Source of the DNA: Variovorax paradoxus
Lineage (GTDB): Bacteria > Pseudomonadota > Gammaproteobacteria > Burkholderiales > Burkholderiaceae_C
Assembly (NCBI RefSeq): GCF_030811855.1
Contig: NZ_JAUSRN010000001.1
Span: forward strand, 310,001 to 374,000
DNA length: 64,000 nt
Direction of reading: 5' to 3'
Shown here: in pieces, positions 14,382 to 48,508 of the stretch
Layout of the letters: the number at the start of each line of letters is the position of its first letter
Numbering within the stretch: the first letter of the stretch is position 1
The notes under the pieces: generated by a model
Databases searched by the model: none
Seen by the model: only the letters and a program-made list of their open reading frames with translations
Told to the model about the DNA's origin: nothing
Translations under genes and position numbers: made by a program

Positions 14382-14382
14382 A

Positions 14383-19960: not shown

Positions 19961-20025
19961 TGTTGAATTACCTTCCAGAGGCCCGAATTCTGACCAGCCA
20001 CTGAGCAAATGGCACGGCCGGAATT

Positions 20026-20034: not shown

Positions 20035-20038
20035 AAAA

Positions 20039-21277: not shown

Positions 21278-21490
21278 TGCATTTCCCGGGAGCGATGGAG
21301 AGCCGCGAATATAGGCTCCCTTCCTCATCGGTTCCCGCATAAGAAAACTCGGTTCTCGTACGTGCCGCACCGCGGGCGCTCACGCGCAATCAGCGCATTT
21401 CCAAGATCGAAAAAATGCTAAGTGCCGGCTCCATTTTCCCGGACCATCGTCTGCCCTTTTGCACCAGTCGCGGACACGGCGACCCACTCC

Positions 21491-26359: not shown

Positions 26360-26376
26360 GCATATCGATAGTTGAA
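26360..26376 (+). promoter_or_regulatory. Sulfur-operon element GCATATC-N2-TAG-N2-GAA
   Basis: GCATATCGATAGTTGAA lies 80 bases before the start of the amino-acid ABC operon. It matches 13 of 17 positions with the element upstream of the DppB-like gene (35418-35434, minus). TTCGTTG follows at 26381-26387. Candidate binding site of a sulfur regulator of LysR type (CysB/Cbl/SsuR); the regulator is not in the window. Confidence 0.4.
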
Positions 26377-26455
26377 GGCATTCGTTGCGATGGCAGCCCC
26401 GGCCTCGCAAGATCCCCGCTGGCCCCGCTTTGCCCTTTTCCGCTCTTCCTATCCA

Positions 26456-27301
26456 ATGACATTCCGCTCGCGCCTTTCTTTTTTCTCCTCTCGCACCGCC
26501 ATCGCGCTAGCCAGTGTTCTCGGCCTGTGCGCTCAGGCGGCGCATGCCGACGCCACGCTCGACCGCATCAAGCAGCGCGGCAAGGTCGCCATCGGCGTGG
26601 TGGTGGGCGGCGGTCCCTTCGGCTCGATCGACCCCGCCACGCAGCAGTTGGTCGGCTGGAACCCCGACTTGGCGCGCGACCTGGCCAAGCAGCTCGGTGT
26701 CGAAGCCGAGCTGGTGCAGGTACAGCCCTCGAACCGCGTGCAGTTCCTGCAATCGGGCAAGGTCGACCTCTTGATCGCCTCGATGGAATACAACGCTGAC
26801 CGCGGCGAGATCCTCGGCCATGCGCCCACGCCTTTCTACCGCGTGGGCGGCACGGCGGCGGTGCTCAAGACCAGCGGCATCGCCAAGTGGGAAGACCTGC
26901 GGGGCAAGGTCGTTTGCGCTTCCCAGGGCAGCAGCTACGTGAAGCCGCTGCAGGAGCAATACGGTGCCCAGGTGCGCGGCTTCAAGAGCTCTGCGGAATC
27001 GCTGCTCGCGCTGCGCGGCGGTAACTGCGTGGCGGCCGTGCACGACGCCACGCTGATCCAGCCACTGTTGCGCAACAACGCCGAATGGGCCGCATACGCG
27101 GCGCCGATCCGCGATGAGATCCTGCCCGCGCCGTCGGTGGTGTGGACCCGCAAGGGCGAGGCCGACACCGTTGCCGCCGTCGACAAGGTGGTCCAGCAAT
27201 GGCACCGCAGCGGCTGGCTGATCGCCACCGAAAAGCGCAACGGCATCGAGCCGCCGCAGCCACTGCTGCCCGAGCTGCAGGCCAGGTTCAAGGCGCCCTG
27301 A
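26456..27301 (+). CDS. Polar amino-acid ABC transporter substrate-binding protein
   Basis: 281 residues, SBP family 3. Signal peptide MTFRSRLSFFSSRTAIALAS... ends near AAHADATLDRIKQRG. The body shows KVAIGVVVGGGPFGSIDP, VGWNPDLARDLAKQLGV, and VVCASQGSSYVKPL. It delivers an amino acid (possibly cystine, cysteine or an analog, judging from the downstream cysteine dioxygenase) to the permeases encoded next. The ATG at 26456 gives a clean signal peptide; an upstream start would add 28 residues. First gene of a seven-gene-like run to 31.57 kb. Confidence 0.92.
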   Translation: MTFRSRLSFFSSRTAIALASVLGLCAQAAHADATLDRIKQRGKVAIGVVVGGGPFGSIDPATQQLVGWNPDLARDLAKQLGVEAELVQVQPSNRVQFLQSGKVDLLIASMEYNADRGEILGHAPTPFYRVGGTAAVLKTSGIAKWEDLRGKVVCASQGSSYVKPLQEQYGAQVRGFKSSAESLLALRGGNCVAAVHDATLIQPLLRNNAEWAAYAAPIRDEILPAPSVVWTRKGEADTVAAVDKVVQQWHRSGWLIATEKRNGIEPPQPLLPELQARFKAP

Positions 27302-27307
27302 GCGTCG

Positions 27308-28051
27308 ATGAGCGAAACGCTGCTAGCGCAGGCCGTGGCCGCCCTCAGGGCGGTGGGCCTGAACTACGCCTTCGTGCTCGACGCCGGTGAGCGCAGCGCC
27401 TTCCTGCGCGGTCTCGGCGTCACGCTGCAGCTGTGCCTGCTGACCATTCCGGCAAGCCTTGCGGCGGGCGTTCTGATCGCGGCGGCGCTGACCTCGGGCC
27501 GTGCCTGGCTGGTGCACCCGGCGCGCGCCTTCGTCGAGCTCACGCGCAACACGCCCACGCTGGTGCAGCTTTACTGCGCGTTTCTCGTGCTCAACATGCT
27601 GATCACGCAGCACGTGAAGCTGCCCGGCGGCAATCCGCTCACGCCCTTCGTGTGGGTGGTGATCGTGGTGTCGCTGCACAAGGGCGTGTTCCACGCCGAG
27701 GCGCTGCGCGCGGGCATCGAGGCCGTGCCGCGCGTCACGCTGGAGGCTGCGCGCTCGCTCGGCTTCTCGCAGCGCCAGCTGCTGTCGCGCGTGGAGCTGC
27801 CGCTGGCGCTGCGCTTCGCGCTGCCCTCGCTGATCAACAACCTGGTCGACCTGGTCAAGATGACCGCGGTGGCCTCGGCCATCGCGGTGGGCGACGTGAC
27901 CTACGAATCCATCATGATCTGGACACAGCGCGACAACGTGCTCGAGCTGCTCCTGCTGATCCTGATCTTCTTCGGCCTGCTGACCTGGCTCGTGAGCCTG
28001 GCGGGCCGCTGGCTCGAGGAACGGTTGAGAATGCCCGGCTATGGCCAATGA
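27308..28051 (+). CDS. Amino-acid ABC transporter permease 1 (HisM/GlnP type)
   Basis: 247 residues, several membrane segments (LQLCLLTIPASLAAGVLIAAAL, WVVIVVSLHKGVFHAEA, LLLLILIFFGLLTWL) and the EAA coupling loop EAARSLGFSQRQLLSRVELPLAL that contacts the ATPase. It follows the SBP by 6 bases and overlaps the second permease by 11 bases. It forms a heterodimer with that permease in the inner membrane. Confidence 0.92.
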   Translation: MSETLLAQAVAALRAVGLNYAFVLDAGERSAFLRGLGVTLQLCLLTIPASLAAGVLIAAALTSGRAWLVHPARAFVELTRNTPTLVQLYCAFLVLNMLITQHVKLPGGNPLTPFVWVVIVVSLHKGVFHAEALRAGIEAVPRVTLEAARSLGFSQRQLLSRVELPLALRFALPSLINNLVDLVKMTAVASAIAVGDVTYESIMIWTQRDNVLELLLLILIFFGLLTWLVSLAGRWLEERLRMPGYGQ

Positions 28052-28853
28052 GATCGCACTTCCTCAAGGCGGCGCCCCCACCCTTTCCGCGGACGCCGGC
28101 ACGCCCGCATGGCGCCGTCCCTGGGCCTTGGCGGCGTGGGCCACGCTGGCGCTCATGGTGTTCTGGGCCGCCACGGGCACCACGCCCCTGGCTTTCGTCC
28201 ATCTCTGGAAATGGCTGCCCACGCTTTTGCGCGGCCTCCTGGCCAACATCGAGATCAGTGTGCTCGCAATGGCGCTGGGCACATTGGCCGGGCTGCTGGT
28301 CGGGGCGGTTTCGCTCTCGCCGCTTCGGGTGCTGCGCGTGGCCACGCGCTGGTACGTGCAGGTCTTTCGCAATGCGCCGGTGCTGGTGCTGGTCTATTTC
28401 ACGACCTATGTGTTTCCGTTCGAGCTGCACCTGGTGTCGTGGACTTTTCCCTTTCCTGACTGGATCAAGGTCGTGCTGGGCCTCGCACTGCCGGCCAGCG
28501 CGAACGTGGCGGAAATCTTCCGTGGCGCGATCCAGTCGATCCCGAGCGCGCAGTGGGAGGCCGCGCAGTCGCTGGCATTCAGGCGCAGCGAGATCTTCCG
28601 CCTGATCGTGCTGCCGCAGTGCCTGCGCCGCATGCTGCCGCCGTGGATGAACTTGTACGCCAGCATCACCATGAGCACGGCGCTGGCCTCGCTGGTGGGC
28701 GTGCACGACGTCGTCGACACGGCACAGATCGCGAGCAACACGGTCGCGCGCACCGACTTCACCATCCTTGTCTATTTCACGCTGCTGGGCCTGTTCTTCG
28801 CCTACTGCTATCCGATTGCGCGCGCTACCCGCGCGTTGGAGCACCGCCCATGA
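28041..28853 (+). CDS. Amino-acid ABC transporter permease 2
   Basis: 270 residues, membrane protein with the family loop EAAQSLAFRRSEIFRLIVLPQCLRR and the entry motif VFRNAPVLVLVYF. It overlaps the first permease gene at its start and the ATPase gene (ATGA) at its end, implying translational coupling and stoichiometric assembly of the transporter. Confidence 0.92.
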   Translation: MANEIALPQGGAPTLSADAGTPAWRRPWALAAWATLALMVFWAATGTTPLAFVHLWKWLPTLLRGLLANIEISVLAMALGTLAGLLVGAVSLSPLRVLRVATRWYVQVFRNAPVLVLVYFTTYVFPFELHLVSWTFPFPDWIKVVLGLALPASANVAEIFRGAIQSIPSAQWEAAQSLAFRRSEIFRLIVLPQCLRRMLPPWMNLYASITMSTALASLVGVHDVVDTAQIASNTVARTDFTILVYFTLLGLFFAYCYPIARATRALEHRP

Positions 28854-29710
28854 CTGCCATTGATATCACCCGTTCCGCGCCCGCCGCAGAGGAAGCCCCG
28901 CTCGTGGCGCTCGGCGACGTGCACCTGCGGTTCGGCGCCAACGAGGTGCTCAAGGGCATCGACCTGGAGGTGCGGCGGGGCGAGGCCGTGTCCATCATCG
29001 GTCCTTCGGGATCGGGCAAATCGACCATCCTGCGCTGCATCACCGGCCTGCTGCGGCCGCAACGCGGGGCGATGCGTGTCGGCGACACGCAGGTGGACAC
29101 GCTTCGCTCCGAGGCCGAGCTGATCGCACTGCGCAAGCGCGTGGGCTTCGTTTTCCAGCAGTACAACCTGTTCCCGCATCTCACGGTGCTGGAAAACCTG
29201 GTGATCGCGCCCACGCGCGTGGCAGGCCGTGACCGCGCCGCGGCGCAGCGCGAGGCCCGCGTGCTGCTCGACAAGGTGAGGCTGTCGCACAAGGAGGCGG
29301 CCTATCCCGGCGAACTCTCGGGCGGGCAACAGCAGCGCGTCGCGATCGCGCGGGCGCTGGCCATGCGCCCCGAACTGATCTTGTTCGACGAGGTGACTTC
29401 CGCCCTCGATCCGGAGACCGTCGGCGAGGTGCTGACCGTGATCCGCGACCTGGTTCAGGAGGGCCTGACCTGCGTGCTGGTGACGCACGAGATGCGCTTT
29501 GCCGAGGAGATCAGCGACCAGGTGTATTTCACCGAGGCAGGCGTCATCGTCGAACACGGCCCCGCGCCGCGCATCTTCGGGCGGCCCGAAAGCGAACGCA
29601 CCCGCGCCTTCCTTCGCCGCGCGCTCGGCGAAGGCGCGCGCACGGCGCCTGCACGACCCGCTCCCCTTGCCGAAGCGCTGCCTTTCGAGCGGCTGCGCTT
29701 CGCGCTCTGA
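28850..29710 (+). CDS. Amino-acid ABC transporter ATP-binding protein (GlnQ type)
   Basis: 286 residues. Walker A GPSGSGKST at 51-59, Q-loop FQQYNLFPHLTV, signature LSGGQQQR, Walker B LILFDEVTSALDPE, switch His in VTHEMRFAEE. The Walker B continuation DEVTSALDPE matches the polar amino-acid family. About 35 extra C-terminal residues (rich in Ala, Pro and Arg) extend beyond the usual end. It overlaps permease 2 and is followed after 21 bases by the cysteine dioxygenase gene. Confidence 0.94.
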   Translation: MTAIDITRSAPAAEEAPLVALGDVHLRFGANEVLKGIDLEVRRGEAVSIIGPSGSGKSTILRCITGLLRPQRGAMRVGDTQVDTLRSEAELIALRKRVGFVFQQYNLFPHLTVLENLVIAPTRVAGRDRAAAQREARVLLDKVRLSHKEAAYPGELSGGQQQRVAIARALAMRPELILFDEVTSALDPETVGEVLTVIRDLVQEGLTCVLVTHEMRFAEEISDQVYFTEAGVIVEHGPAPRIFGRPESERTRAFLRRALGEGARTAPARPAPLAEALPFERLRFAL

Positions 29711-29731: not shown

Positions 29732-30370
29732 ATGAACACATCTCACCGCCTCTCTGGCACTGCATTAGCCGCCCAGCGCCGCGTCGCGGTCGACCAGGCC
29801 CTGACCGACATCCGCCGCATCGCGAACACGCAACCCCTCGATCGCGCCGTTCTTGGGCGCATCACGGCGCGCCTCGAAAAACTCGCGGGACTGGCCGAAC
29901 TGTTCACCAGCGCCGATTTTCCGCAACCGGCTGTCACCGAAGGCGTGGGCGCCTCCACGCGCTACCGACTGAATCCCGAGGACGGCAACGAGGACCTGGC
30001 GCTCTATCTGAACTCCATCAATCCGGGAAAGACGTCGATTCCGCACAACCACACGACCTGGGCCGCCATCGTCGCTGTCCAGGGGCAGGAGGAGAACCGC
30101 ATCTACCGCCGCACCGACGACGGCAGCGACCCGGCGGTGGCGCGGCTGGCGATCGCGCGACAAGTGACGGTGCAGCCCGGCACGCCGATCGCCTTCCTGC
30201 CCGACGACCTGCACAGCATCCACGTGATCGGCGACAGGCCCACGCTGCATTTCCACCTGTATGGCCGTCCGCTCGAAACCCTTTCGCAGCGCATCGGTGT
30301 GAATCTGGAAACCGGTGCGGTCGTGAACTACAACGCCACGCAGCTCAAGCCGGGCAAGGCGGTGGCATGA
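29732..30370 (+). CDS. Cysteine dioxygenase family thiol dioxygenase
   Basis: 212 residues, a cupin. Probable iron ligands are His105 and His107 in IPHNHTTW and His161 in LPDDLHSIHVIG; FHLYGRPLE closes the barrel. It adds O2 to a thiol, giving cysteine sulfinate from cysteine, or the sulfinate of 3-mercaptopropionate. Bacterial members differ in substrate by an active-site Arg and Gln that I cannot assign safely. It overlaps the start of the C-S lyase gene by ATGA and sits behind an amino-acid importer, a coherent thiol-oxidation unit. It is paralogous to the N-terminal domain of the fusion protein at 36.9-39.1 kb. Confidence 0.9.
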   Translation: MNTSHRLSGTALAAQRRVAVDQALTDIRRIANTQPLDRAVLGRITARLEKLAGLAELFTSADFPQPAVTEGVGASTRYRLNPEDGNEDLALYLNSINPGKTSIPHNHTTWAAIVAVQGQEENRIYRRTDDGSDPAVARLAIARQVTVQPGTPIAFLPDDLHSIHVIGDRPTLHFHLYGRPLETLSQRIGVNLETGAVVNYNATQLKPGKAVA

Positions 30371-31572
30371 GCGCGAAAGCTTCAGCAGCAAACCTGCGCT
30401 CAGCCACCCGATTGCTGCATGCGGGCGCCCCCGCGCTGCGCGACGGCGCGGGGCCGGTCAACGTTCCTGTGGTGCGCACAAGCACCGTGCGCTTCGAGAA
30501 CACGGCCGCCCATGCCGACCACCACCACCGCCGCGCGGCGGGCGAACGCGTGGCCTCCTACGGCCGCCATGGCCTGGACACCCACCGCGCACTCGAAGAC
30601 GCGGTGGTGGGCCTTGAAGGCGGGCACCGCGCCTTCCTCACGCCTTCGGGCCTGTCGGCGATCACGCTGGTGCTGTTCGCGCTGCTCTCTCCCGGCGACC
30701 ATGCACTGGTGGCCGACGGCGTGTATGCGCCGCTGCGCCGAGTCGACAGCACGCTGCTCCAGCGGCTGGGCATCACGATCGAGTATTTCTCGCCGACGCA
30801 CGACGACTTGGCCAGCCTGCTGCGGCCGAATACGAGGCTGCTGTACCTCGAATCGCCGAGCTCGCTGCTCTACGAGGTCCTGGATCTGCCCGCGCTGAGC
30901 GCCGTTGCGCGCGACCGCGGCGTGATCGTGGCGACCGACAACACCTGGAGCGGCGGCTGGTTCCATCGGCCGCTTGCGCTGGGCGCCAACATCTCGATCC
31001 AGGCGGCCACCAAGTACATCTCGGGCCATTCCGACCTGATGCAGGGCATCGTGGTGGTCGACAGCCCGGCGCTGGCCGCAAAGCTCTCGACCGCCTATGA
31101 GGCGCTGGGCCTGACCATCGGCGCCGACGATGCCTACCTCTCGCTGCGCGGCCTGCGCACCCTGCCGGTTCGGCTGGCGCAGCACCAGCGCAATGCCACG
31201 GCGGTGGCTGAATTCCTGCAGCAGCAGCCGCAGGTGTCGCGTGTCTTCTACCCGGCGCTGCCCACCGACCCCGGCCATGCGCTGTGGAAGCGCGATTTCA
31301 GCGGTGCGAGCGGCCTGGTCTCCTTCGAATTCCGCCATGCCACGCCGGCCACCGCCAACGCCTTCGTTGATGCGCTCGCGCTCTTCGGCATCGGCGCCTC
31401 GTGGGGCGGCTACGAAAGCCTTGCGCTGGCCGCTCAGCCCGAGCGGTTGCGCGAGCACCGGCAGTGGACCGGCGACGCGCCGGTCGTGCGGCTGCACATC
31501 GGGCTCGAGGATCCGCAGGATCTGATCGCCGACCTGGCGCAAGCCTTTGCCGCCGCTGCACCGGCGCTTTGA
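30367..31572 (+). CDS. PLP-dependent Cys/Met metabolism enzyme (cystathionine beta-lyase-like)
   Basis: 401 residues. The PLP lysine is Lys216 in QAATKYISGHSD and Asp191 in VATDNTWSGG binds the pyridine nitrogen; TPSGLSAITLVLFALLSPGD is the phosphate-binding loop. The pattern matches MetC-type lyases that cleave the C-S bond of cystathionine or other S-conjugates of cysteine, releasing a thiol, pyruvate and ammonia. Last gene of the plus-strand transporter-CDO operon. It could liberate thiols from imported cysteine conjugates. Confidence 0.91.
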   Translation: MSAKASAANLRSATRLLHAGAPALRDGAGPVNVPVVRTSTVRFENTAAHADHHHRRAAGERVASYGRHGLDTHRALEDAVVGLEGGHRAFLTPSGLSAITLVLFALLSPGDHALVADGVYAPLRRVDSTLLQRLGITIEYFSPTHDDLASLLRPNTRLLYLESPSSLLYEVLDLPALSAVARDRGVIVATDNTWSGGWFHRPLALGANISIQAATKYISGHSDLMQGIVVVDSPALAAKLSTAYEALGLTIGADDAYLSLRGLRTLPVRLAQHQRNATAVAEFLQQQPQVSRVFYPALPTDPGHALWKRDFSGASGLVSFEFRHATPATANAFVDALALFGIGASWGGYESLALAAQPERLREHRQWTGDAPVVRLHIGLEDPQDLIADLAQAFAAAAPAL

Positions 31573-31621: not shown

Positions 31622-33352
<1,731 letters not shown>

Positions 33353-33353
33353 C

Positions 33354-34322
33354 TCAACGCCCCCTCAGCCGTGGGTTGAACGCGTCGTTGAGCCCGTCCC
33401 CCACGAGGTTGAGCGCCAGCACCGTGAGCACGATGGCCGCGCCCGGCAATGCGGTGAGATACCAGGCGGTGCGCAGCAGTTCGCGCCCCTGCCCGATCAT
33501 GCTGCCCCACGACACGGCGTTGGGGTCGCCCATGCCAAGGAAGGACAGCGCCGATTCGATGAGGATGGCGCTCGCCACCAGCACCGAGGTGGTCACGATC
33601 ACGGGGGGCAGCGCATTGGGCAATATCTCCTGGAAGATGATGCGCGCGTGGCCGAAGCCCTGGCTGCGCGCGGCCAGCACGAACTCGGTCTCGCGCAGCG
33701 TGCGGAACTCGGCGCGCACCAGCCGGGCGATCACCGGCCACGACGCGAGCCCGATGGCGAACACGATCACCGGCACCGAAGGCTGGCCGATCGCGACCAC
33801 CACGATCACGAACAGGAACGAAGGCACGGTCTGGAACAGCTCGGTGATGCGCACCAGCACGTCGTCGATGCGGCCGCCGAAATAGCCGGCCGAGGCCCCC
33901 ACGAGCACGCCGATCAACAGGCTCAGCGTGGCCGCCACCACTCCCACCGCGAGCGAGATGCGAGCGCCGTGCGCAATGCCGGCAATCACGTCGCGGCCGA
34001 GTGAATCGCTGCCGAGCGGATAGGCCGCGTCCTGCCCCGGCCAAAGCAGCGGCGGCGCCACCATGTCGAGGGGGTCACCGGGGTACAGCAACGGCGCGGC
34101 GAGCGCTAGCACGAGCATGAAGGCCAACAGCACCGCGCCCGCCGCGGCGGCCGGGTTGCGCCCGAAGGCTCGCAGCGCAGCGTGGCGGCTGGAGAGCGGC
34201 TCGACGTCGACAGCGGATTTCGCGGCCACTGCCACTGCCACTGCCGGTGCGCGGCGTGCGGCGACCGGAGCCGGCGCTGCCGGTTGCCCAATGGCGGAAT
34301 CGAGGAGGAACGGAGTGGACAT
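33354..34322 (-). CDS. Oligopeptide ABC transporter permease (DppC type)
   Basis: 322 residues. An Ala/Val-rich 60-residue N-terminal extension precedes the DppC-type membrane domain (GSDSLGRDVIAGIAHGARISLAVGVV, and EFVLAARSQGFGHARIIFQEILPNALPPVIV as the coupling loop). It pairs with the DppB-type protein encoded 31 bases upstream. Inner membrane. Confidence 0.92.
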   Translation of the reverse strand: MSTPFLLDSAIGQPAAPAPVAARRAPAVAVAVAAKSAVDVEPLSSRHAALRAFGRNPAAAAGAVLLAFMLVLALAAPLLYPGDPLDMVAPPLLWPGQDAAYPLGSDSLGRDVIAGIAHGARISLAVGVVAATLSLLIGVLVGASAGYFGGRIDDVLVRITELFQTVPSFLFVIVVVAIGQPSVPVIVFAIGLASWPVIARLVRAEFRTLRETEFVLAARSQGFGHARIIFQEILPNALPPVIVTTSVLVASAILIESALSFLGMGDPNAVSWGSMIGQGRELLRTAWYLTALPGAAIVLTVLALNLVGDGLNDAFNPRLRGR

Positions 34323-34353: not shown

Positions 34354-35337
34354 TCAGCGCACCTGGATGCGAGGATCAAGCCAGGCATGTAGCAGGTCGA
34401 CCAGCATGTTGGCCACGATGACCAGCAGCGAGGACATCAGCAGCACACCCAGCAGCACCGTGTAGTCGCGGCCCGCCACCGAATCGAAGGCCAGCCGCCC
34501 GAGGCCGGGCCAGCTGAACACCGTCTCAACCACCACCGCGCCGCCCAGCAGCGTGCCGAAATGCATGCCTGCGACGGTGGTGACGGGGATCAGCGCGTTG
34601 CGCAGCACATGGTGCAAATTGACGGTCCACGGATGCAGGCCTTTGGCCTCGGCGGTGCGAACGAAGTCCTGCCGCGCCACCTCCAGCATCGCGGCGCGCG
34701 TGAGGCGCGAGAAGATCGCGATGTAGAAACCCGACATGGCCAGCGCTGGCAGCACGAGGTGGCGCGCCACGTCGAGTGCATGCGTCCAGCCGGTGTAGCC
34801 CGCGCCGATGCTCTCGCTGCCGCCGGTGGGCAGCCACCCCAGGTGCACCGAGAACAGCACGATGGCCATCAGGCCGAGCCAGAAGCCCGGCGTGGAGTAC
34901 AGGAGCAGCGCCAGCACCGAGAGCGTGCGGTCCTGCCAGCGGCCCACGCGGGTGGCCATGACGGTGCCCAGCGCAATGCCGATGGCCAGGGCGAAGGCCA
35001 GGGCCGTGACCATCAGCAGCAGCGTGTTGCCCAGCCGCGCGCCGATCAGCGACGCCACCGGCATGTTGTAGCGCGGCGAAGTGCCGAGGCTGAAATGCGC
35101 GAGGTTGTCGAGATAGGCGCCCAGCTGGTGCAGCACGGGCAGATCGAGCCCGAAGTGGCTGCGCAGCTGCGCCATGCTCTCGGCCGTGGCGGAGCCGGAT
35201 TCGGCGGCCACCACGTCGGCGGCGTCGCCCGGGATCCACTGCATCAGCACGAAATTGAGAAGGATCACACCGACGATGGTCGGCACGGCCTGCCAGGCCG
35301 TGCGTGCCAGCGTGCGGCTTGCGCTGCGCAGGTTCAT
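34354..35337 (-). CDS. Oligopeptide ABC transporter permease (DppB type)
   Basis: 327 residues. AWQAVPTIVGVILLNFVLMQWIPGD is the first membrane segment, and DFVRTAEAKGLHPWTVNLHHVLRNALIPVTT is the EAA-type coupling loop. First gene of the operon DppB, DppC, DppDF. Its promoter region holds the 41-base element at 35411-35451 that is duplicated before the rhodanese fusion gene, tying this transporter to sulfur regulation. Confidence 0.92.
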   Translation of the reverse strand: MNLRSASRTLARTAWQAVPTIVGVILLNFVLMQWIPGDAADVVAAESGSATAESMAQLRSHFGLDLPVLHQLGAYLDNLAHFSLGTSPRYNMPVASLIGARLGNTLLLMVTALAFALAIGIALGTVMATRVGRWQDRTLSVLALLLYSTPGFWLGLMAIVLFSVHLGWLPTGGSESIGAGYTGWTHALDVARHLVLPALAMSGFYIAIFSRLTRAAMLEVARQDFVRTAEAKGLHPWTVNLHHVLRNALIPVTTVAGMHFGTLLGGAVVVETVFSWPGLGRLAFDSVAGRDYTVLLGVLLMSSLLVIVANMLVDLLHAWLDPRIQVR

Positions 35338-35410
35338 GGGAGTTGTTGGAGGTGTGGTGAAAGCGGTCGATGGGCTTGCAGCGTATGCGGGGCGGGCCCG
35401 TGCGGCGAAG

Positions 35411-35451
35411 GAAGTTTTTCTTCTACGGATATGCGGTTTGCTTCGGTGGCC
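35411..35451 (-). repeat. Duplicated 41-base promoter element, copy 1
   Basis: Matches 36 of 41 positions with 39182-39222 and has the same orientation relative to its downstream minus-strand gene. It starts GAAGTTTTTC on the plus strand, has GGATATGC in the centre and ends TTGCTTCGGTGGCC. It lies 74 bases before the DppB-like start and downstream of the MFS gene. The strict spacing suggests a regulator-binding plus promoter unit rather than a mobile repeat. Confidence 0.6.
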
Positions 35452-35487
35452 ACATGGGCGTCTGAGGACTCTGGCCGGAAGAAGCTT

Positions 35488-36882
35488 TCACAGGCACACC
35501 ACCGCGAGCAGCACGCCCGCGAGCCTGAACAGCGTCGACAGGTCGAACGAGACCGACGCCCCCGCCGCCAGCTGCGCCGGCACCCCCGAGACCAGCGCGC
35601 CGAACAGCGCGATGCCGACGGCGCTGCCGACCTGGCGCGCGGCACCAAGGATGGCCGATGCGGTCGCCGAGCGCGCAGGCTCCACGCTCGCGAGCGTGCG
35701 CGAGATCAGTGCCGGCGTGGCAATGCCGGCGCCGATGGCCATCAGGAGGAGACTGGGAAGGATGCGCAGGTAGGGCGTGGTCTCGTCGATGCCGTGCAGC
35801 AGCGCCGAACTCAGGGCGAGGAGCAGCAAGCCAGCGATCACCGGGACCCGGGGCGAGTAGCGCCTTGCCAGGCGCCCGCTCGCGAGGTTCGCCAGCATGA
35901 TCACCACGAACGGCAGCAAGGCGAAGCCGGCCTGGGTCGGCGTGTAGCCCTTGGCGTTCTGGAAGTACAGGCTCAGCACGAAGATCAATCCGTAGAAGGT
36001 GAGGTTCATGACCACACCCAGCACCACCGATGCCGAAAAGGCACGGTTGCGGAACAGCCCGAGCGGAATCATCGGCTCCGCTACGCGTGATTCGGTGAAC
36101 ACGAATGCGGCGATGACCACCGCCGCCACGGCAAAACCCCACAGCACGGGTGCCGCGGCCCAGCCCTGCACGCCGGCCTCGATCACCGAATGCGTGAGAA
36201 AGAAAAGCGCGAGGATGGCCAGCACCTGCCCGGCGGCGTCCACCCGCTGCGCGGCCACGCGCACCGTGTCGGCAACGTGGCGGCCGGCCGTCCACAGCCC
36301 GACGGCGCAGATCGGCAGGTTCACGAAGAAGATTGCGCGCCACCCGAGGCCGCTCGTGAGTGCGCCGCCGACCACCGGCCCGGCGGCACTCACCACGCCG
36401 CCGATGGCGCTCCACCATCCGATGGCATGTGTCCTGGCCGCCGCGTCGCCGGCACAGGCATGCGAGAGCAGCGAGAGCGAAGTAGGCAGGATCAATGCGG
36501 CGCCAATGCCCTGCGCCGCGCGCGCCGCGATCAACACGCCGATGGAAGGTGCGAGCGCGCAGGCCAGCGAGGCCAGCCCGAAAAGCACCAACCCGAGGCT
36601 GAAGACGCGCCGGCTACCGAAGCGGTCGGCAAAGGAGCCGGCCGTGAGCAATAGCGCGGCGAAGGCCAGCGTGTAGGCGTCGACGATCCATTGCAGGCCG
36701 GTCGCGCCGGCGCCGAGATCCTTGCCGATCTGCGGCATTGCCACGTTCACGATGGTCACGTCGAGCTGCACCACGACGAAGCCGAAGCTCGTTGCGGCCA
36801 GGGTCCAGCCAATGCCGGTGCTGCGTGCGCCAGCCCATGGCGGCGCTGGGATGCTCCGCAGATCTTCCGATGCGGTGCCCAC
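35488..36882 (-). CDS. MFS transporter, DHA2 (14-TM drug/H+ antiporter) type
   Basis: About 464 residues. QLDVTIVNVAMPQIGKDLGAG in the first segment, QWIVDAYTLAFAALLLTAGSFADRFGSRRVF and ARAAQGIGAALILPTSLSLL are motif D1, A and C-like signatures of DHA2 exporters. I choose the GTG at 36882, 11 bases after the end of the rhodanese fusion gene; another GTG at 36939 would lie inside that gene. Likely exports a small molecule such as a product or toxic intermediate of sulfur metabolism; the cargo is unknown. Probably co-transcribed with the fusion gene. Confidence 0.85.
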   Translation of the reverse strand: MGTASEDLRSIPAPPWAGARSTGIGWTLAATSFGFVVVQLDVTIVNVAMPQIGKDLGAGATGLQWIVDAYTLAFAALLLTAGSFADRFGSRRVFSLGLVLFGLASLACALAPSIGVLIAARAAQGIGAALILPTSLSLLSHACAGDAAARTHAIGWWSAIGGVVSAAGPVVGGALTSGLGWRAIFFVNLPICAVGLWTAGRHVADTVRVAAQRVDAAGQVLAILALFFLTHSVIEAGVQGWAAAPVLWGFAVAAVVIAAFVFTESRVAEPMIPLGLFRNRAFSASVVLGVVMNLTFYGLIFVLSLYFQNAKGYTPTQAGFALLPFVVIMLANLASGRLARRYSPRVPVIAGLLLLALSSALLHGIDETTPYLRILPSLLLMAIGAGIATPALISRTLASVEPARSATASAILGAARQVGSAVGIALFGALVSGVPAQLAAGASVSFDLSTLFRLAGVLLAVVCL

Positions 36883-36892
36883 TCGGCCCCGT

Positions 36893-39112
36893 TCAGGCCG
36901 CGGCCGGCTCGACGAGGCGAATGCCCACGTCGCCCTCACGTTCGAGCTGTGCTACGAGGCCTACCTCCCAGTCCAGGTATTGCTTGAAGCCGGCGTCACG
37001 TTTGAGAAGATCGGCGTGTGCATAGGGGCTGTACCAATGGTCGTCATCGCCCGTCAGCACGCCTTCCGGGCCGCTGCCCGTGGGCAGGCGCGCGGCAGCC
37101 CAGGCCTGTGTGCCGCCCGCGAGCGCGTGGACCTCGCGGGCGATGCGCGCGCCCAACTCCGCCGCCACGATGCGCGCGAGCACGCCGTCCGACGAGGTGA
37201 GCACGATGCGCTGCGATACGGGCAGGTCGGCGGTGAACTCCTGCAGCCGGTCCGGCACCGCGAACCGCGCACCCGCGACATGCCGGCGCTCGTACGCTGC
37301 ACGGCGCTCCACATCGAACACGATGGCGGTGCCGGCCTCGAGGGCGGCGGCGGCTTCGCGCGGCGCAATCTCTGGCGCGGGCGCGCGCAACGGCAGCACG
37401 CGCACAGGTTCGGGGCCGAGCACCAGCACCGGCAAGGCCGGCGGCGAAAGCACGAACACCTCGTGGCCGCCCAGCTGCGCGAGCCATGCGCCGGTGGTCA
37501 GCGCGCGCACGCCGTCCCAGTCGGCCAGCACAATGCGGGCGCGGCGGGTGCCCACGTATTCGTCGGTGGCCTGCACCAGCTGGCCGCCGGGCGCCCAACG
37601 CCAGCCTTCGAGGTGCCCGGCCTCGTACTCCTGGCGCGTGCGCACGTCGAAGCGGTAGAGCGAGCGCTCGTCGGACTCGGCTTCGAAGCGCGCCAACGTG
37701 GCCGCGTCGATACGGCGCACGCCTGCGCGCGCCGCCACGCTCTCGGCACGGCCACGGGCCGCCTGCCGCGCGTGTTCGCCCGGTTCGGGCAACGGCGCAG
37801 CACGGCCGTGGCTGAGCTTGCGACCCGCCAGCAGCCAAGCCATGGTGCCGTCCTTCAGCGAAACCACCGGGTTGGGAATTCCCGCGTCGATGAGCGTCTG
37901 CGCGCCCACGATGCTGCGCGTGCGGCCGGCGCAGTTGACCACCACCAGCGTCTCTGGCCGGGGCGCGAGCTCCTGGATGCGGTAGACCAGCTCGGCGCCC
38001 GGCAGGCTGTGGGCAAACGGCAGGCTGAAGTCGGCAAATTCCTCCGGCGTGCGGCTGTCGACCACGACGATGTCGTCGCCGCGCTCCACGCGCTCGTGCA
38101 GTTCGTCGACCGAGATCCAGGGCGTGTGCTTCTGGTGCTCGATGACCTCGCCGAAGGCCTTGCTCGGCACGTTGCTGCCGCTGAACAGTTCATAGCCGGC
38201 GGCGGCCCACCCCTGCGTTCCGCCGGCCAGCACCGACACGTTGCGCCAGCCCAGACGCACGAGCTTGGCGGCCGCCTGGTGCGCGAGCGCTTCGTCGGCA
38301 TCGGTCAGCACGATGCGGGTGCTGCGGCGCGGCACGAGGCGGTCGATCAGCACTTCAAGCCGCCACAGCGGCGCCGAGGCCGCGAGCAGGATGTGGCTGC
38401 GCACGAAGACGCCGGCCTCGCGCACGTCGAGCAGCGCGATCTCCTCGCCATCGGACAGGGCCGCCTTCAGTGCCTGCGGCGTGATCGCCGGGTGGCGAAT
38501 GTTCTTTGGCGCCGCGAAATGGCGGTAGCTGCCGCCCTCCGCGCCTTCGAATACCACGCGCTTGTCGAGCAGCTCGAGCGCACGGCCATAGAAGTGCAGG
38601 TGGCGCCCGTCCTGGCCGCCGACCAGCTCGATGGTGTGCACGTCGTCGGGCAGCAGCACGACGGCGCTTCCGGAAGCCACGTCAACGGTGCGCTGGTGCA
38701 CCAGCGCGTCGCGCGCGGGATCGCCCGTCTTCTCGCGGCGGTAGAGCTCGTTGCGTTCGTTGCCCTCCACGCCGGCGATCACCGCCCAGGTTGTGTGGTC
38801 GTGCGGCGGCTGGGCCTTGCCTGCCACGCCGGCCGACAGGTACAGCACGAATCCGCCGTCGGCGTCCTCGGCCAGCCGGTAGACCTGCGCGGGGTGCTCG
38901 GCATCGACCGGGAAGTGAGCGGCCGGAAACAGCGCGCGACGCTGACCCAGCCGGATCAGCGCATCGGCCACGGGCTGCAGCGTGTCGTGGGAGGCGGCGG
39001 CGCCAGGAAGCAGCAGGCTTCGGACCTGCGCGAGGAAGGCTTCGACGGCGCGCGCGCGGTCGCTGGCGACATCGTTTCCCGCGGTTTCGACGGACAGTTC
39101 GCTAAGGCTCAT
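36893..39112 (-). CDS. Cysteine dioxygenase-like cupin fused to four rhodanese domains
   Basis: 739 residues. Residues about 20-190 are a thiol dioxygenase cupin, with His104 and His106 in PPHDHTTW and His159 in LPDDVHTIEL, paralogous to the free cysteine dioxygenase at 29.7 kb. Then four rhodanese modules near 205-310, 331-430, 467-555 and 575-675. Only the second has the active cysteine (Cys394 in VVNCAGRTRS); the others have LTDADEA, LADWDGV and LTSSDGV at that place and are probably structural. A C-terminal tail of about 60 residues (HWYSPYAHADLLKRDAGFK onward) ends it. It suggests channeling from thiol oxidation to sulfane-sulfur transfer. The promoter carries the duplicated element. Confidence 0.9.
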   Translation of the reverse strand: MSLSELSVETAGNDVASDRARAVEAFLAQVRSLLLPGAAASHDTLQPVADALIRLGQRRALFPAAHFPVDAEHPAQVYRLAEDADGGFVLYLSAGVAGKAQPPHDHTTWAVIAGVEGNERNELYRREKTGDPARDALVHQRTVDVASGSAVVLLPDDVHTIELVGGQDGRHLHFYGRALELLDKRVVFEGAEGGSYRHFAAPKNIRHPAITPQALKAALSDGEEIALLDVREAGVFVRSHILLAASAPLWRLEVLIDRLVPRRSTRIVLTDADEALAHQAAAKLVRLGWRNVSVLAGGTQGWAAAGYELFSGSNVPSKAFGEVIEHQKHTPWISVDELHERVERGDDIVVVDSRTPEEFADFSLPFAHSLPGAELVYRIQELAPRPETLVVVNCAGRTRSIVGAQTLIDAGIPNPVVSLKDGTMAWLLAGRKLSHGRAAPLPEPGEHARQAARGRAESVAARAGVRRIDAATLARFEAESDERSLYRFDVRTRQEYEAGHLEGWRWAPGGQLVQATDEYVGTRRARIVLADWDGVRALTTGAWLAQLGGHEVFVLSPPALPVLVLGPEPVRVLPLRAPAPEIAPREAAAALEAGTAIVFDVERRAAYERRHVAGARFAVPDRLQEFTADLPVSQRIVLTSSDGVLARIVAAELGARIAREVHALAGGTQAWAAARLPTGSGPEGVLTGDDDHWYSPYAHADLLKRDAGFKQYLDWEVGLVAQLEREGDVGIRLVEPAAA

Positions 39113-39181
39113 GGGGGCTTTCAGGCAAGAGAAGAAAACAGGGCTGCGGACAGCCTACGCAGCGGACTCCGCGGGACCAAC

Positions 39182-39222
39182 GAAGTTTTTCGACTACGCA
39201 TATCCGGTTTGCTTCGTTGGCC
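39182..39222 (-). repeat. Duplicated 41-base promoter element, copy 2
   Basis: Second copy of the element at 35411-35451 (36/41 identical), 70 bases before the rhodanese-fusion start on the minus strand. It also lies 34 bases before the divergent Bug gene, which it may serve too. The centre here is GCATATCC where copy 1 has GGATATGC, so the core is read in opposite sense while the flanks are conserved. Confidence 0.6.
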
Positions 39223-39255
39223 CGGAGCGGGCGCGCCTCTAGATTGCGCCGCCTG

Positions 39256-40260
39256 ATGCACACATTCCTCATGCCCCCTGCGCGTCGCCGCGGCTTGCTG
39301 CTAAGCGCCCTGGCCCTTGCAAGCCTTCACCCCTTCGCCGCCGCTGCTGCCGACGAGGGGGCCGGATTCCCGTCGAAGCCGGTGCACATCGTGGTGCCCG
39401 TGGCCGCCGGCGGCAGCGCCGACAAGCTCACGCGGCTCATCGCCGAACGCCTGACCGAACGCTGGGGCCAGCCGGTGGTGGTCGAGAACCTGGCCGGCGC
39501 CAGCGGCACCATCGGCGCCGCGCGCGTGGCCAAGGCAACGGCCGACGGCCACACGCTGCTGCAGCAGGGCGAGGGCCTGACGCTCAACGCCATTCTTTTC
39601 GAGCGCCTCCCTTACGACGGGCAGAAGGCCTTCACGCCGGTGATCAAGGCGGTGGTGAATCCGCAGATCCTCGTGGTCAACCCGAGGACCGGCATCAACG
39701 ACTTCCGCGGCTACCTGGCTCGCGCAAAGGCGCAGCCGCAGTCGATCAGTCTCGGCCTGCCCGGCAACGGCGGCATCGCCCACGTAGCGCACGAAATGAT
39801 CGCGCAGGACACCGGCGCGCAGGTGAACTACATCCCCTACTCCGGCGGCGGCCCCGCCACCCTCGACGTGCTCGCCGGCCATGTGGATGCCACGCTGATC
39901 ACGCTGGCCGCGGTCACCGACCACGTGCGTGCCGGCAAACTGCGCGCGCTGGCCGTGACAACCGCGTACCGCTCGAGCGCTCTGCCCGATGTGCCGACCA
40001 TGGCCGAGGCCGGCCTGCCGGGTTTTGCCGTGGAGAGCTGGCAGGGGTACTTCGCGCCCGCCGGGACGCCGGCCGCGGTGGTGGCAAAGATCAACCGCGA
40101 CATCCAGGCCGTGATCTCCGCACCGGAGACGCGGGCGAAGCTCGAGGACATGGGCTTCAAGGTCGCAGGCGGCACGCCCTCCGACATGGCGCGCACCCTC
40201 GCTGCCGATCGCGTGCGCTACGCCAAGACCATCCAGACCGCCGGCATCACGCTCCGCTGA
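39256..40260 (+). CDS. Bug family tripartite tricarboxylate transporter substrate-binding protein (second)
   Basis: About 334 residues: signal peptide MHTFLMPPARRRGLLLSALA... to AAAADEG, then PSKPVHIVVPVAAGGSADKLTRLIA and VVVENLAGASGTIGAARVAKATADGHTLL. The first motif has AAGGSADK where most members have PPGGxxD, so ligand contacts may differ. Divergent from the cysteine dioxygenase/rhodanese fusion and sharing its 143-base control region, so a sulfonate or sulfur-containing carboxylate ligand is plausible. A start at 39271 is also possible. Confidence 0.88.
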   Translation: MHTFLMPPARRRGLLLSALALASLHPFAAAAADEGAGFPSKPVHIVVPVAAGGSADKLTRLIAERLTERWGQPVVVENLAGASGTIGAARVAKATADGHTLLQQGEGLTLNAILFERLPYDGQKAFTPVIKAVVNPQILVVNPRTGINDFRGYLARAKAQPQSISLGLPGNGGIAHVAHEMIAQDTGAQVNYIPYSGGGPATLDVLAGHVDATLITLAAVTDHVRAGKLRALAVTTAYRSSALPDVPTMAEAGLPGFAVESWQGYFAPAGTPAAVVAKINRDIQAVISAPETRAKLEDMGFKVAGGTPSDMARTLAADRVRYAKTIQTAGITLR

Positions 40261-41884: not shown

Positions 41885-42508
41885 TTATCCCGCGGGTTGG
41901 GTGGCTGAGGCGTAGCCGCCCAGGAACACCTGCACCGCGCGGCGCGTCGCCTCCCGCAGTTCCCTGCGGGTCAGCGGGCCTTGGATGCCCAACAGACTCG
42001 GCCTGACGGTTTCCGAGTCCAGCAGCGCCATCAGGTGGTGTGCCGCCGTGGTGGGTTCGGACGTTCGCAGGCGGCCCTTGCGCATCTGCCGTTCCAGGAA
42101 ACCCGCCAGTTCGGCAACGCCCTTCTTGGGGCCTCCCTCGAAGAAGAGCCGCCCGATGTCGCTGCGGCCGGATTCGGCGATCACGGCCCTGTGCGCCTGG
42201 ATGACCTCTTGCGAACACATCGCGGCCAGGACCTTCTCGCCGAAACGTTGCAGCACGCGCGCGAGGTCTTCATCGCCCTCCTCGGCCAGCGCCGTGAAGA
42301 TCGGCTCGAAGTGGATTTTCGCCGAGGCGTGGATCACGGCAACGAACAGTTCCTCCTTGGACTTGAAGTACCCGTAGAGCGTTGCCCTCGAACCGCCGAC
42401 GCGAGCGGCAATTTCCACCATCGAGGCGCCTTCGAACCCCAGTTCCCTGAAGACTTCCGACGCCACCTGGACGATGGCGTCGCGCTTGGCTTCGGTTTTG
42501 ACTCGCAT
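41885..42508 (-). CDS. TetR family regulator of the divergent RND pump (AcrR-like)
   Basis: 207 residues from the ATG at 42508, after AGAGAAACGAG; an upstream alternative would extend it by 30 residues into the shared promoter. The helix-turn-helix FEGASMVEIAARVGGSRATLYGYFKSKEELF is near residues 26-56. It is divergent from the efflux operon with 140 bases between them, the standard arrangement for a local repressor. A C-terminal TetR_C-like domain would bind a drug or toxic substrate. It is co-directional with an orphan histidine kinase. Confidence 0.9.
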   Translation of the reverse strand: MRVKTEAKRDAIVQVASEVFRELGFEGASMVEIAARVGGSRATLYGYFKSKEELFVAVIHASAKIHFEPIFTALAEEGDEDLARVLQRFGEKVLAAMCSQEVIQAHRAVIAESGRSDIGRLFFEGGPKKGVAELAGFLERQMRKGRLRTSEPTTAAHHLMALLDSETVRPSLLGIQGPLTRRELREATRRAVQVFLGGYASATQPAG

Positions 42509-42549
42509 CTCGTTTCTCTTTATTTCTGTACACAGGTGATCATTATTGA

Positions 42550-42577
42550 TTGACAACTCGTTGGAAGTCAAAATACA
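42550..42577 (+). promoter_or_regulatory. Probable promoter of the RND efflux operon
   Basis: TTGACA at 42550-42555 and AATACA at 42572-42577 with 16 bases between. A perfect 10-base palindrome ACAGCGCTGT lies just downstream at 42585-42594 and could hold a TetR repressor; neither is proved. Confidence 0.4.
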
Positions 42578-42648
42578 TTTCAGTACAGCGCTGTCCATTT
42601 AACCCATGGCCGGCCCCACCGCCCGGCCCCTTCTTCAGGAGAATCGCG

Positions 42649-43857
42649 ATGCGCCCCCCTTTCACCTATGGCCTGACGTTTGCCGCGGCCCTCGCGTCCA
42701 CCTGCATGCTTGTCGCTTGCGGCAAGCCGCCGGGCGGCCCGCCGCCGGCGCCCGGCACGCCCGAGGTCGGCGTGGTCACGGTGCAGCCGCAACGCATCGC
42801 CATCACGACCGAGTTGCCCGGGCGCACCGTGCCCTTCCTCATCGCTGACGTGCGCCCGCAGGTCGGCGGCATCGTGAAGGCCCGCAAGTTCCGCGAAGGC
42901 AGCGACGTGAAGGCCGGCGAGGCGCTCTACGAGATCGATCCCGCCACGTACAAGGCAACCTACGACAGTAACGTCGCCGCGCTTGCCAAGGTGCAGGCCA
43001 GCCTGGTCACCACGCGGCTGAAGGCCGAGCGCTACAAAGAGCTCGTGGCCATCAAGGCGGTGAGCCAGCAGGACTACGACGATGCCGCAGCCTCGCTGCA
43101 GCAAGGCGAGGCCGACGTTGCTGCGGCCAAGGCCAATGTCGAGACAAGCCGCATCAACCTCGCCTACGCGCGCATCGATGCGCCGATCTCGGGCCGCATC
43201 GGCAAGTCGACGGTCACGCCCGGCGCGCTGGTCACGGCCAGCCAGTCGACGGCACTCGCGACCATCCAGCAGCTCGACCCGATCTATGTCGACGTGACGC
43301 AACCCAGTGCCGCGATGCTTCAACTCAAACAGGCCATGGCCCGCGGCGACCTGCAAAAAAGCGGAGCGAATGCCGCCCGGGTGCAACTGATGCTGGAAGA
43401 CGGCAGTACGTACCCGCTCGAAGGCAAGCTCGAGTTCTCGGACGTCACCGTGGACCAGAACACCGGCGCCATCACGCTGCGCGCGGTGTTCCCCAACCCC
43501 AACGCCGATCTCTTGCCTGGCATGTACGTGCGCGCCGTGTTACAGGAAGGCGTGAAGGAACAGGCGCTCATGGTGCCGCAGCAGGCGGTGTCGCGCGACG
43601 GCGCCGGCAAGCCGGTGGCCTACGTGGTGGACGCCCAGCACAAGCTGCAGCGGCGCGCGCTCGAGACCGAACGCGCCATCGGCGACCAGTGGCTGGTGCG
43701 CAGCGGCCTGCAGGCCGGCGACAAGCTGGTGGTGGACGGCCAGCAGCGCGCGGCGCAGGGCGTCGAAGTGAAGACGATGCAATGGACCCCCAAGCCCAAG
43801 GCGGCCACCGAAACGGCCAAGGCCGCCCCGTCCGGCTCCGGCAGCACGGCAAACTGA
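42649..43857 (+). CDS. RND efflux periplasmic adaptor (AcrA/MexA family lipoprotein)
   Basis: 402 residues. The signal ends at lipobox LVAC (Cys near residue 24), so it is anchored to the inner membrane outer leaflet. PGRTVPFLIADVRPQVGGIV and ALYEIDPATYKATYDSN form the lipoyl half-motif, coiled-coil hairpin near 100-170, then YARIDAPISGRIGKSTVTPG, the second lipoyl half. The C-terminal Lys/Ala/Thr tail is usual. AGGAG precedes the ATG at 42649. First gene of the three-part pump. Confidence 0.95.
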   Translation: MRPPFTYGLTFAAALASTCMLVACGKPPGGPPPAPGTPEVGVVTVQPQRIAITTELPGRTVPFLIADVRPQVGGIVKARKFREGSDVKAGEALYEIDPATYKATYDSNVAALAKVQASLVTTRLKAERYKELVAIKAVSQQDYDDAAASLQQGEADVAAAKANVETSRINLAYARIDAPISGRIGKSTVTPGALVTASQSTALATIQQLDPIYVDVTQPSAAMLQLKQAMARGDLQKSGANAARVQLMLEDGSTYPLEGKLEFSDVTVDQNTGAITLRAVFPNPNADLLPGMYVRAVLQEGVKEQALMVPQQAVSRDGAGKPVAYVVDAQHKLQRRALETERAIGDQWLVRSGLQAGDKLVVDGQQRAAQGVEVKTMQWTPKPKAATETAKAAPSGSGSTAN

Positions 43858-43872
43858 TCGAGAGAAACCGTC

Positions 43873-46800: not shown

Positions 46801-47034
46801 TCGCTGGCCTTCATCCTCGGCGTGCTGCCGCTGGTATTGGGAAGCGGCGCCGGGGCCGGTGCGCAGCATGCGCTGGGCACGGCCGTGATCGGCGGCATGC
46901 TGTCGGGAACCATCCTCGCGATCTTCTTCGTGCCTCTTTTCTTCGTGCTGGTGCGCGGCCTGTTCAAGGGCAAGGACCGAGGCGATTTCGCCGGGCCGGC
47001 CTCGCATGCACAACCGGCTGCGGCCGCATCCTGA
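43873..47034 (+). CDS. RND efflux inner membrane pump (HAE1 family, AcrB/MexB-like)
   Basis: 1053 residues, a normal HAE1 length. [23 protein letters not shown] is the hallmark start. [25 protein letters not shown] contains the two proton-relay aspartates near residues 406-407 in TM4. [10 protein letters not shown] and [14 protein letters not shown] in the C-terminal half complete the set. It exports hydrophobic drugs or toxic compounds by proton antiport as a homotrimer. It follows the adaptor by 15 bases and the channel gene follows by 10. Confidence 0.96.
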
Positions 47035-47044
47035 GATCCCCGTC

Positions 47045-48508
47045 ATGAAACTCCTTCGCTTCACCCCGCTTGCGCTCGCTGCCCTGGTGGCCGGCTGCAG
47101 CCTGATGCCCGCCTACCAGCAGCCCGCGGCGCCAGTGCCCGGCAAGTTTGCCGGCGATGCGGCCGCCGACCCGGCATCCACCACGCCCGTCGCCGAGCTC
47201 GGCTGGCGCGATGTCTTCACCGACGCGTCGCTGCAGCGCGTGATCGAGATGAGCCTCGCCAACAACCGCGACCTGCGCGTGGCGGTGCTGAACATCGAGA
47301 AGGCTCGCGCCCAGTACCGGGTGCAGGATGCGGCGCTCTTCCCCACCGTCAACGCCAGCGCCGGCGGCAGCGGCAGCCGCACGCCGGCCGACCTGTCGTC
47401 CACCGGCGAGGCGCTCACGGCGCGCCAGTACAGTGCCTCGCTCGGATTCAGCTCGTACGAGATCGACCTGTTCGGCCGCGTGCGCAGCTTGAGCGCGCAG
47501 GCGCTGCAGCAGTTCCTCTCCACGGCCGAGGCGCGCCGCAGCACACAGATCAGCCTGGTGGCCGAGGTGGCGACCAGCTACCTCACGCTGGCCGCCGACC
47601 AGGACCGGCTCAAGCTCGCGCGCGACACGCTCCAGAGCCAGAGCGATTCGTACCGCCTCAACCAGCGCAGCTTCGAGCTGGGCGCGGCCTCGGCGCTCAC
47701 GCTCCGCCAGGCGCAGACCAGCGTCGACGCCGCACGCGTGGACGTCGAGCGCTACACCGCGCAGGTGGCGCAGGACCGCAATGCGCTGATGCTGCTCGTG
47801 GGCACCGAAGTGCCGGACGAACTGCTGCCGCAGGCCCTGTCCGACGCGGCGGCGGTGGCCGCAAGCCCGCTGGCCACCATTCCGCCGGGCCTGCCCTCGG
47901 AGCTGCTGCAGCGCCGCCCCGACATCCTGCAGGCCGAGCGCGACCTCAAGGCGGCCAATGCCTACATCGGCGCTGCGCGTGCGGCCTTCTATCCGCGCAT
48001 CAGCCTCACCGCATCGGCCGGCACGTCGAGCAGCGAGCTCTCGGGCCTGTTCAAGGGCGGCTCGGGCAGCTGGAGCTTCGCGCCGCAGGTCACGCTGCCG
48101 ATCTTCGACGGTGGCGCCAACCGCGCCAACCTCAAGATCGCCACGGTGAGCCGCGACATCTCGGTGGCACAGTACGAGAAAGCGATCCAGACCGCATTCC
48201 GCGAAGTTTCGGACGCCCTCGCGCAACGCGGCACGCTCGGGCGCCAGCTCGACGCGCAGGAGTCGCTGGTGAATGCAACGGCGGACAGCTACCGGCTGTC
48301 GCAGGCGCGCTTCCAGCGCGGCGTGGACAGCTACCTGAGCGTGCTCGACTCGCAGCGCTCGCTCTACACCGCCCAGCAGAACCTGATCGGCACCCGGCTG
48401 TCGCGCCTGACCAACCTGGTGACGTTCTACAAGACGCTGGGGGGCGGATGGATGGAGGCCACGGAAGCCCAGGGCACATTCGCACGCACCGCGGAACTGG
48501 CGCCGTGA
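47045..48508 (+). CDS. Outer membrane efflux lipoprotein (OprM/NodT family)
   Basis: 487 residues from the ATG at 47045. Lipobox LVAGC gives a lipid-anchored N-terminus; two outer membrane factor repeats follow ([55 protein letters not shown]). It forms the trimeric TolC-like exit duct for the pump. Its stop overlaps the GTG start of a TetR gene (GTGA), which makes the regulator part of the efflux operon. Confidence 0.95.

Follow-up and report, generated by a model that had tools for sequence, protein, structure and literature searches.

Bacteria that use mercaptosuccinate are reported to carry a cluster of a LysR regulator, the thiol dioxygenase gene msdo, a cystathionine beta-lyase (CBL), a rhodanese and an ABC transporter (PMC5373536). 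The ETHE1/CstB/PRF fusions, in which an oxygenase and a rhodanese share one chain, are defined by a 2-His-1-Asp dioxygenase of the metallo-beta-lactamase (MBL) fold (PMC6060420). What keeps thiol dioxygenase genes in the company of a four-module rhodanese is not explained in the literature examined. Here, we describe a gene of the soil bacterium Variovorax paradoxus that encodes both in one frame. It lies in a stretch of 64,000 nucleotides (contig NZ_JAUSRN010000001.1, positions 310,001 to 374,000; the window), and its product joins an Msdo-type cupin to four rhodanese modules. Judged from its sequence and that of its relatives, it is a real and conserved fusion of a gene pair already known in separate form; we found no description of it in the openly licensed literature searched, which was covered largely at the level of abstracts and passages. 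What is new is the frequency of the pairing, a second, apparently independent fusion, a substrate pocket in which Arg has become Val, Ile or Leu, and a shared upstream box. The parts of the gene are listed below, with conservation among 120 listed fusion homologues, the window's own protein counted as one.

36893..39112, minus strand: fusion gene, Msdo-type cupin plus tetra-rhodanese, 739 aa
38492..39079, minus strand: cupin (thiol dioxygenase) domain, residues 12-207
38882..38884, minus strand: Val77 codon, preceding the conserved Tyr, at the place of the Msdo substrate Arg
38801..38803, minus strand: His104 codon, predicted iron ligand (119/120, one gap)
38795..38797, minus strand: His106 codon, predicted iron ligand (119/120, one gap)
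38636..38638, minus strand: His159 codon, predicted iron ligand (120/120)
38183..38494, minus strand: rhodanese module 1, about residues 207-310; the Cys position holds Asp271
37808..38140, minus strand: rhodanese module 2, about residues 325-435, bearing the active-site Cys
37931..37933, minus strand: Cys394 codon, sole cysteine of the window's protein (120/120)
37433..37729, minus strand: rhodanese module 3, about residues 462-560; the Cys position holds Asp531, with Arg536 retained
37073..37375, minus strand: rhodanese module 4, about residues 580-680; the Cys position holds Ser640

A first-pass annotation of this DNA had read a cupin and four rhodanese modules in this frame, with the iron-site histidines in place and Cys394 as the only active-site cysteine, and the domain make-up and the homologues bear it out on each of these points. 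We then scanned genomes with the rhodanese part alone, keeping the best 80 of 577 loci, of which 79 were usable (L116 was too short). Fifty of these 79 tetra-rhodaneses lie on or directly behind a thiol dioxygenase gene: an Msdo-type cupin is part of the same protein in 19 and lies within 400 bases upstream in 17 (4 of them weak), and a CDO_I-type cupin lies within that distance upstream in 14. A non-redundant set of 131 tetra-rhodaneses contains 91 that are linked to such a cupin, 27 by fusion and 64 as a separate gene directly behind it; the queries behind both sets came from paired genes, which biases the counts toward pairs. Two unfused pairs occur in the own genome as well: the tetra-rhodanese comes after a CDO_I-type cupin in the pair on contig 1 and after an Msdo orthologue in the pair on contig 21. 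The latter (L202, C21:72001-92000) reads divergent LysR, Msdo, tetra-rhodanese, TctC and a PLP enzyme of Cys/Met metabolism of the CBL type, and is much like the published mercaptosuccinate cluster (PMC5373536). Several cupin-less tetra-rhodaneses adjoin, by eye, acyl-CoA-dehydrogenase-like or transport genes. At L114, L125 and L142, an acyl-CoA-dehydrogenase-like gene precedes a tetra-rhodanese that has no thiol dioxygenase (by eye, from translations), and at L071 and L072 a different small cupin-like frame precedes the tetra-rhodanese (also by eye).

There is also a second kind of fusion, in which a CDO_I-type cupin is joined to four rhodanese modules (L086, L087 and L088, from G629, G528 and G704). 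The three loci belong to one genus and give two non-redundant rows; Pfam was run on one of them, L086, where the CDO_I profile matches. The cupin tree groups the Msdo-type fusions in a single clade (100/93) within the Msdo-type half, separate from the Msdo orthologues and beside unfused pairs of Acidiferrobacteraceae; the CDO_I fusions form another (100/99). In the rhodanese tree, a quick one (LG+G4, SH-aLRT alone), the CDO_I fusions are nested among unfused CDO_I pairs, and the Msdo-type fusions are intermixed with cupin-less copies. The fused and unfused states require 9 changes in all on this tree, so that losses or further events may have occurred. From these trees, dioxygenase and tetra-rhodanese appear to have fused at least twice, independently and with different cupin subfamilies.

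The cupin half has the fold and three-His iron site of Msdo, keeps the His-Tyr pair alongside the iron ligands and matches Msdo closely. The first-pass description of it as cysteine dioxygenase (CDO)-like holds for the thiol dioxygenase fold and fails for the family: CDO_I (PF05995) is not listed for the cupin alone at E <= 1 (HMMER, filters on), and we rejected a strict CDO for this reason. A nearby paralogue, also noted in that annotation as a CDO, is present (29732..30370), although it is Msdo-like and carries the Msdo Arg. That Arg is where the fusions depart. Arg66 is the predicted substrate-binding Arg of Msdo from V. paradoxus B4, listed beside Arg60 of CDO (PMC8503633), and an Arg precedes the conserved Tyr in 120/120 listed Msdo sequences. 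The listed fusions, read ungapped, have Val (111), Ile (6) or Leu (3) there; the aligner places a one-residue gap beside Val77, and on the ungapped reading none has Arg before Tyr. All 36 Msdo-type fusion rows of the fetched loci likewise have Val, Ile or Leu, and 15 of 29 unfused Msdo-type rows also lack Arg (repeats included; 35 and 26 distinct cupins). Since Arg is also absent from these unfused rows, the change marks a cupin group and not the fusion itself, and we rejected its loss as an effect of fusion. Three unfused rows (L151, L153 and L166) have Val or Ile with Ser93, as the fusions do; the other Arg-less rows belong to other cupin groups. Human ADO also lacks an Msdo-type Arg (PMC8503633). 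The Gln that precedes Tyr in 3MDO is likewise not found at Val77, and occurs in three CDO_I-type rows.

Other positions of the pocket suggest what it might accept. The fusions have Arg79 and Ser93 where Msdo orthologues have Leu or Met and Asn (120 versus 120); Arg79 is kept in 120/120 listed fusions and in 32 of 36 locus rows, with His in the other 4. Lying two residues past Val77, it could assume the role of the Msdo Arg. Arg185, also kept in 120/120, aligns across a one-residue gap with Arg168, the carboxylate Arg of 3MDO (PMC8050391). Because the Msdo Arg is replaced in all fusions examined, the substrate probably differs from mercaptosuccinate, and it is probably still a carboxylate thiol.

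A third line of evidence is a box with the pattern ATATSCRTA-N9-CTTCGTTGG, present in overlapping copies in the gap between the fusion and a divergent TctC-type gene, and found in the window at four places.

39177..39203, minus strand: box before the fusion, 0 mismatches (pattern drawn from this site and relatives)
39194..39220, plus strand: overlapping box facing the TctC-type gene, 2 mismatches, the other arm of the same inverted repeat
35406..35432, minus strand: box 69 bases before the OppB-type gene, 2 mismatches
26362..26388, plus strand: box heading the amino-acid ABC/Msdo-like/CBL operon, 3 mismatches

These four matches at <=3 mismatches compare with 0.01 expected, the fusion/TctC pair being the source of the pattern. 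The genome has 10 sites, and the reversed pattern gives none. Of the six beyond those four, one precedes an SsuA-like ABC operon that has SfnB at a distance of about 1 kb, one falls in the gap between binding-protein/SsuD-like genes and acyl-CoA-dehydrogenase/CDO/tetra-rhodanese genes, and one is beside an FAD enzyme and an aminotransferase-V enzyme. At <=4 mismatches, the box stands upstream of the fusion in 25/25 Burkholderiales loci, 9 of them unseen when the pattern was set (after inspection of 16 upstream stretches; many loci are close kin), and it turns up in 0.05 of 34 upstream sequences shuffled in blocks of two bases. The box-linked genes look like a sulfur-scavenging regulon, and a LysR regulator of the CysB/SsuR kind may read the box. 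A sigma-70 scan of 35000-39400 found none, and the terminator-like sites there (4 versus 2.3 expected) were not used.

The rhodanese half keeps the four-module arrangement of 1YT8 and has a CAGRTRS active-site loop in module 2. Cys394, Asp271, Asp531 and Ser640 are each kept in 120/120 listed fusions, and the loop Cys, Arg and Ser are found in 120/120 fused and 120/120 unfused rows. The single active Cys is thus a family trait and not a product of fusion, and we rejected the idea that it is peculiar to the fused protein. What sets the fusions apart is their total: 101/120 have one cysteine only, versus 5-9 in the unfused Msdo-side tetra-rhodaneses (n=120 listed). Compared with four relatives, pN/pS is below 1 in all four modules, the Cys-less ones included. 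As part of the explanation that we favor below, modules 1, 3 and 4 are, on balance, conserved structural or binding modules.

The genes around the fusion include several candidate importers and a lyase.

39217..40260, plus strand: TctC-type binding protein (Pfam PF03401), divergent, ATG probably at 39257
35488..36840, minus strand: efflux-type transporter of the major facilitator superfamily (MFS), directly downstream of the fusion
34354..35337, minus strand: OppB-type permease
33354..34322, minus strand: OppC-type permease
31622..33352, minus strand: double ABC ATPase of OppDF type
30367..31572, plus strand: CBL (TIGR01324, 404 bits versus a cut-off of 366)
29732..30370, plus strand: free Msdo-like dioxygenase paralogue (P0001), Msdo Arg retained
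26372..29710, plus strand: polar amino-acid type ABC transporter (SBP3, two permeases, ATPase)

For the last of these, the best model is TcyN, at 303 bits and under its cut-off of 406. At the 24 Burkholderiales fusion loci compared, TctC is a neighbor in 19, CBL and the amino-acid ABC ATPase in 13 each, and an Msdo-like gene in 12. OppB is near in only 3 and the MFS gene was seen at no locus; the flanks vary, so these counts are lower bounds. Elsewhere in the window, genes of a sulfur-acquisition type, an SfnG-like luciferase-type monooxygenase and an SfnB-like oxidoreductase, both under NCBIfam cut-offs, lie at 18776-21370 (minus strand). A MOSC-domain protein adjoins a Fer2/ferric-reductase-type protein (13431-14961, minus strand), an RND efflux system (HlyD, AcrB and an outer-membrane protein) has a TetR-type regulator alongside (41885-48508), and an Omp85 protein with POTRA domains lies at 55504-57906 (plus strand). 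Scans of the window for tRNAs and Rfam families gave no matches.

We think it rather probable that the fusion is a bifunctional thiol dioxygenase-sulfurtransferase that recovers the sulfur of organosulfur compounds taken up by the cell. A carrier of the amino-acid, peptide or TctC type would import a cysteine conjugate or disulfide, and CBL would cleave it to a thiol or persulfide; CSE and CBS of other systems split cystine to the persulfide thiocysteine (PMC5293568). The iron cupin, by analogy with Msdo, would use O2 to convert the thiol to a sulfinate, from which sulfite is released. Following known sulfurtransferase chemistry, Cys394 of module 2 would load sulfane sulfur from a persulfide or thiosulfate and exchange it with the sulfite or sulfinate formed next door; in other systems, sulfurtransferases pass such sulfur to sulfite and to a sulfinate (PMC5293568, PMC7545470). 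The context fits sulfur scavenging, since carriers, CBL, dioxygenase and rhodanese occur together with a box common to sulfonate-type genes. Most weight is carried by the second fusion, the altered pocket and the box held in common. Functional coupling of the two activities is likely because of the frequent pairing, the second fusion and the box; channeling of a persulfide or sulfinate between the two active sites is our hypothesis.

Several observations weigh against this explanation. Deletion of tst, the PA2603 homologue, in P. protegens did not significantly change extracellular 3-mercaptopropionate (3-MPA; PMC12947264); thiol removal in that species can thus do without the rhodanese, which tells against tight coupling. 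The own genome has no SoxB above cut-off (weak matches arise in 10/14 control genomes); thiosulfate would therefore not be Sox-oxidized, and we rejected that fate. Around the 10 non-Burkholderiales fusion loci checked, no TctC, Msdo-like, CBL or ABC permease gene was found, and 9 fusion loci other than those of Burkholderiales lack the box upstream (6-8 mismatches); they come from Alphaproteobacteria, Nitrosomonadales and unplaced metagenome-assembled genomes. Three of the 10 genomic box sites lie by no evident sulfur gene (a GST, an ABC permease and a ribonucleotide reductase, one gene scanned at each). Finally, for 29/79 tetra-rhodaneses the 400 bases upstream contain no such cupin, although some contigs stop near the gene and a partner may have been missed; at two loci (L027 and L031) an Msdo-type cupin lies on the other side, about 0.7 kb downstream.

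A more elaborate possibility, which we hold tentatively, is a self-contained persulfide converter, both sulfur atoms leaving from one polypeptide. The lyase would make R-SSH, Cys394 would remove its sulfane sulfur, the cupin would turn the leftover R-SH into sulfinate or sulfite, and the rhodanese would give the stored sulfur back as thiosulfonate or thiosulfate. If so, the missing Msdo Arg would be the sign of another substrate class among thiol dioxygenases, and the dioxygenase/tetra-rhodanese pair would be a general bacterial module. It is unlikely that the cupin is instead a persulfide dioxygenase of a new fold, turning R-SSH from the lyase or rhodanese into sulfite and thiol as MBL-fold ETHE1/CstB/PRF do. 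The replaced Arg in all fusions examined (120 listed and 36 locus rows) would suit it, the neighboring CBL and cystine-like carrier could supply persulfide as known for CSE and CBS (PMC5293568), and MBL-fold persulfide dioxygenase-rhodanese fusions exist (PMC6060420). However, no cupin-fold persulfide dioxygenase turned up, though no search was made by that name, and the conserved Arg185 suits a carboxylate thiol. We give still less credence to a rhodanese half that ignores the dioxygenase product and delivers sulfur, e.g., to sulfite-oxidizing molybdenum-cofactor enzymes, the fusion only equalizing expression. The V. paradoxus B4 rhodanese has been discussed as a sulfur deliverer (PMC5373536), the P. 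protegens deletion is compatible with this (PMC12947264), and most cupin-linked tetra-rhodaneses are still separate genes (64 versus 27 fused, of 131), but fusion with two different cupin subfamilies exceeds the needs of co-expression. A cupin that merely senses thiol or O2 for the rhodanese, without catalysis, is very improbable: its best Pfam hint is AraC_binding (E 0.0022, 18.2 bits, under the cut-off of 21.1), yet the iron histidines and the His-Tyr pair are all conserved and the domain is close to Msdo. An assembly or annotation join of two genes is hardly credible, since, even though relatives with separate genes exist, the architecture recurs in the 120 listed homologues and in 19/79 loci of titled assemblies.

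The natural fusion offers a single protein for direct tests of coupling, and the second fusion, with another cupin, a comparison. Behind many entries titled "rhodanese-like domain-containing protein" or "sulfurtransferase" stands a dioxygenase missed by Pfam and NCBIfam, and the pocket of this hidden enzyme differs from those of Msdo, CDO and 3MDO at a substrate-binding place. Fused and side-by-side pairs together point to a putative shared step in organic-sulfur recovery.

Among known systems, EanB, the anaerobic ergothioneine synthase, likewise strings several rhodaneses together and bears a persulfide on a single Cys (the Foldseek match is weak, TM 0.15-0.25), but it has no dioxygenase and another arrangement. 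The tetra-rhodanese 1YT8 of P. aeruginosa, annotated as a thiosulfate sulfurtransferase and which we take to be PA2603, is unfused and has, by alignment, an extra cysteine in module 4. The Pseudomonas 3mdo-tst pair (PA2602/PA2603 homologues) makes two proteins, with a 3MDO/CDO_I-type cupin in contrast to the Msdo type of the fusion. CstB and PpPDO/PRF also combine an iron dioxygenase and a rhodanese in one chain, a likeness to ETHE1-rhodanese fusions that the first-pass annotation had rightly drawn while expecting another dioxygenase fold: theirs is an MBL fold with 2 His and 1 Asp and one C-terminal rhodanese domain, ours a three-His cupin with four modules, and the oxygenase halves are not homologous. 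Msdo of V. paradoxus B4 (PDB 8VNI) shares the cupin fold, the three histidines, the His-x-His-x-Tyr motif and the same half of the tree, and its genes cluster with CBL and rhodanese genes, as at the fusion. It differs in being a separate gene with the substrate Arg in place of the Val, Ile or Leu of the fusions, and the own genome keeps its Msdo orthologue elsewhere, on contig 21.
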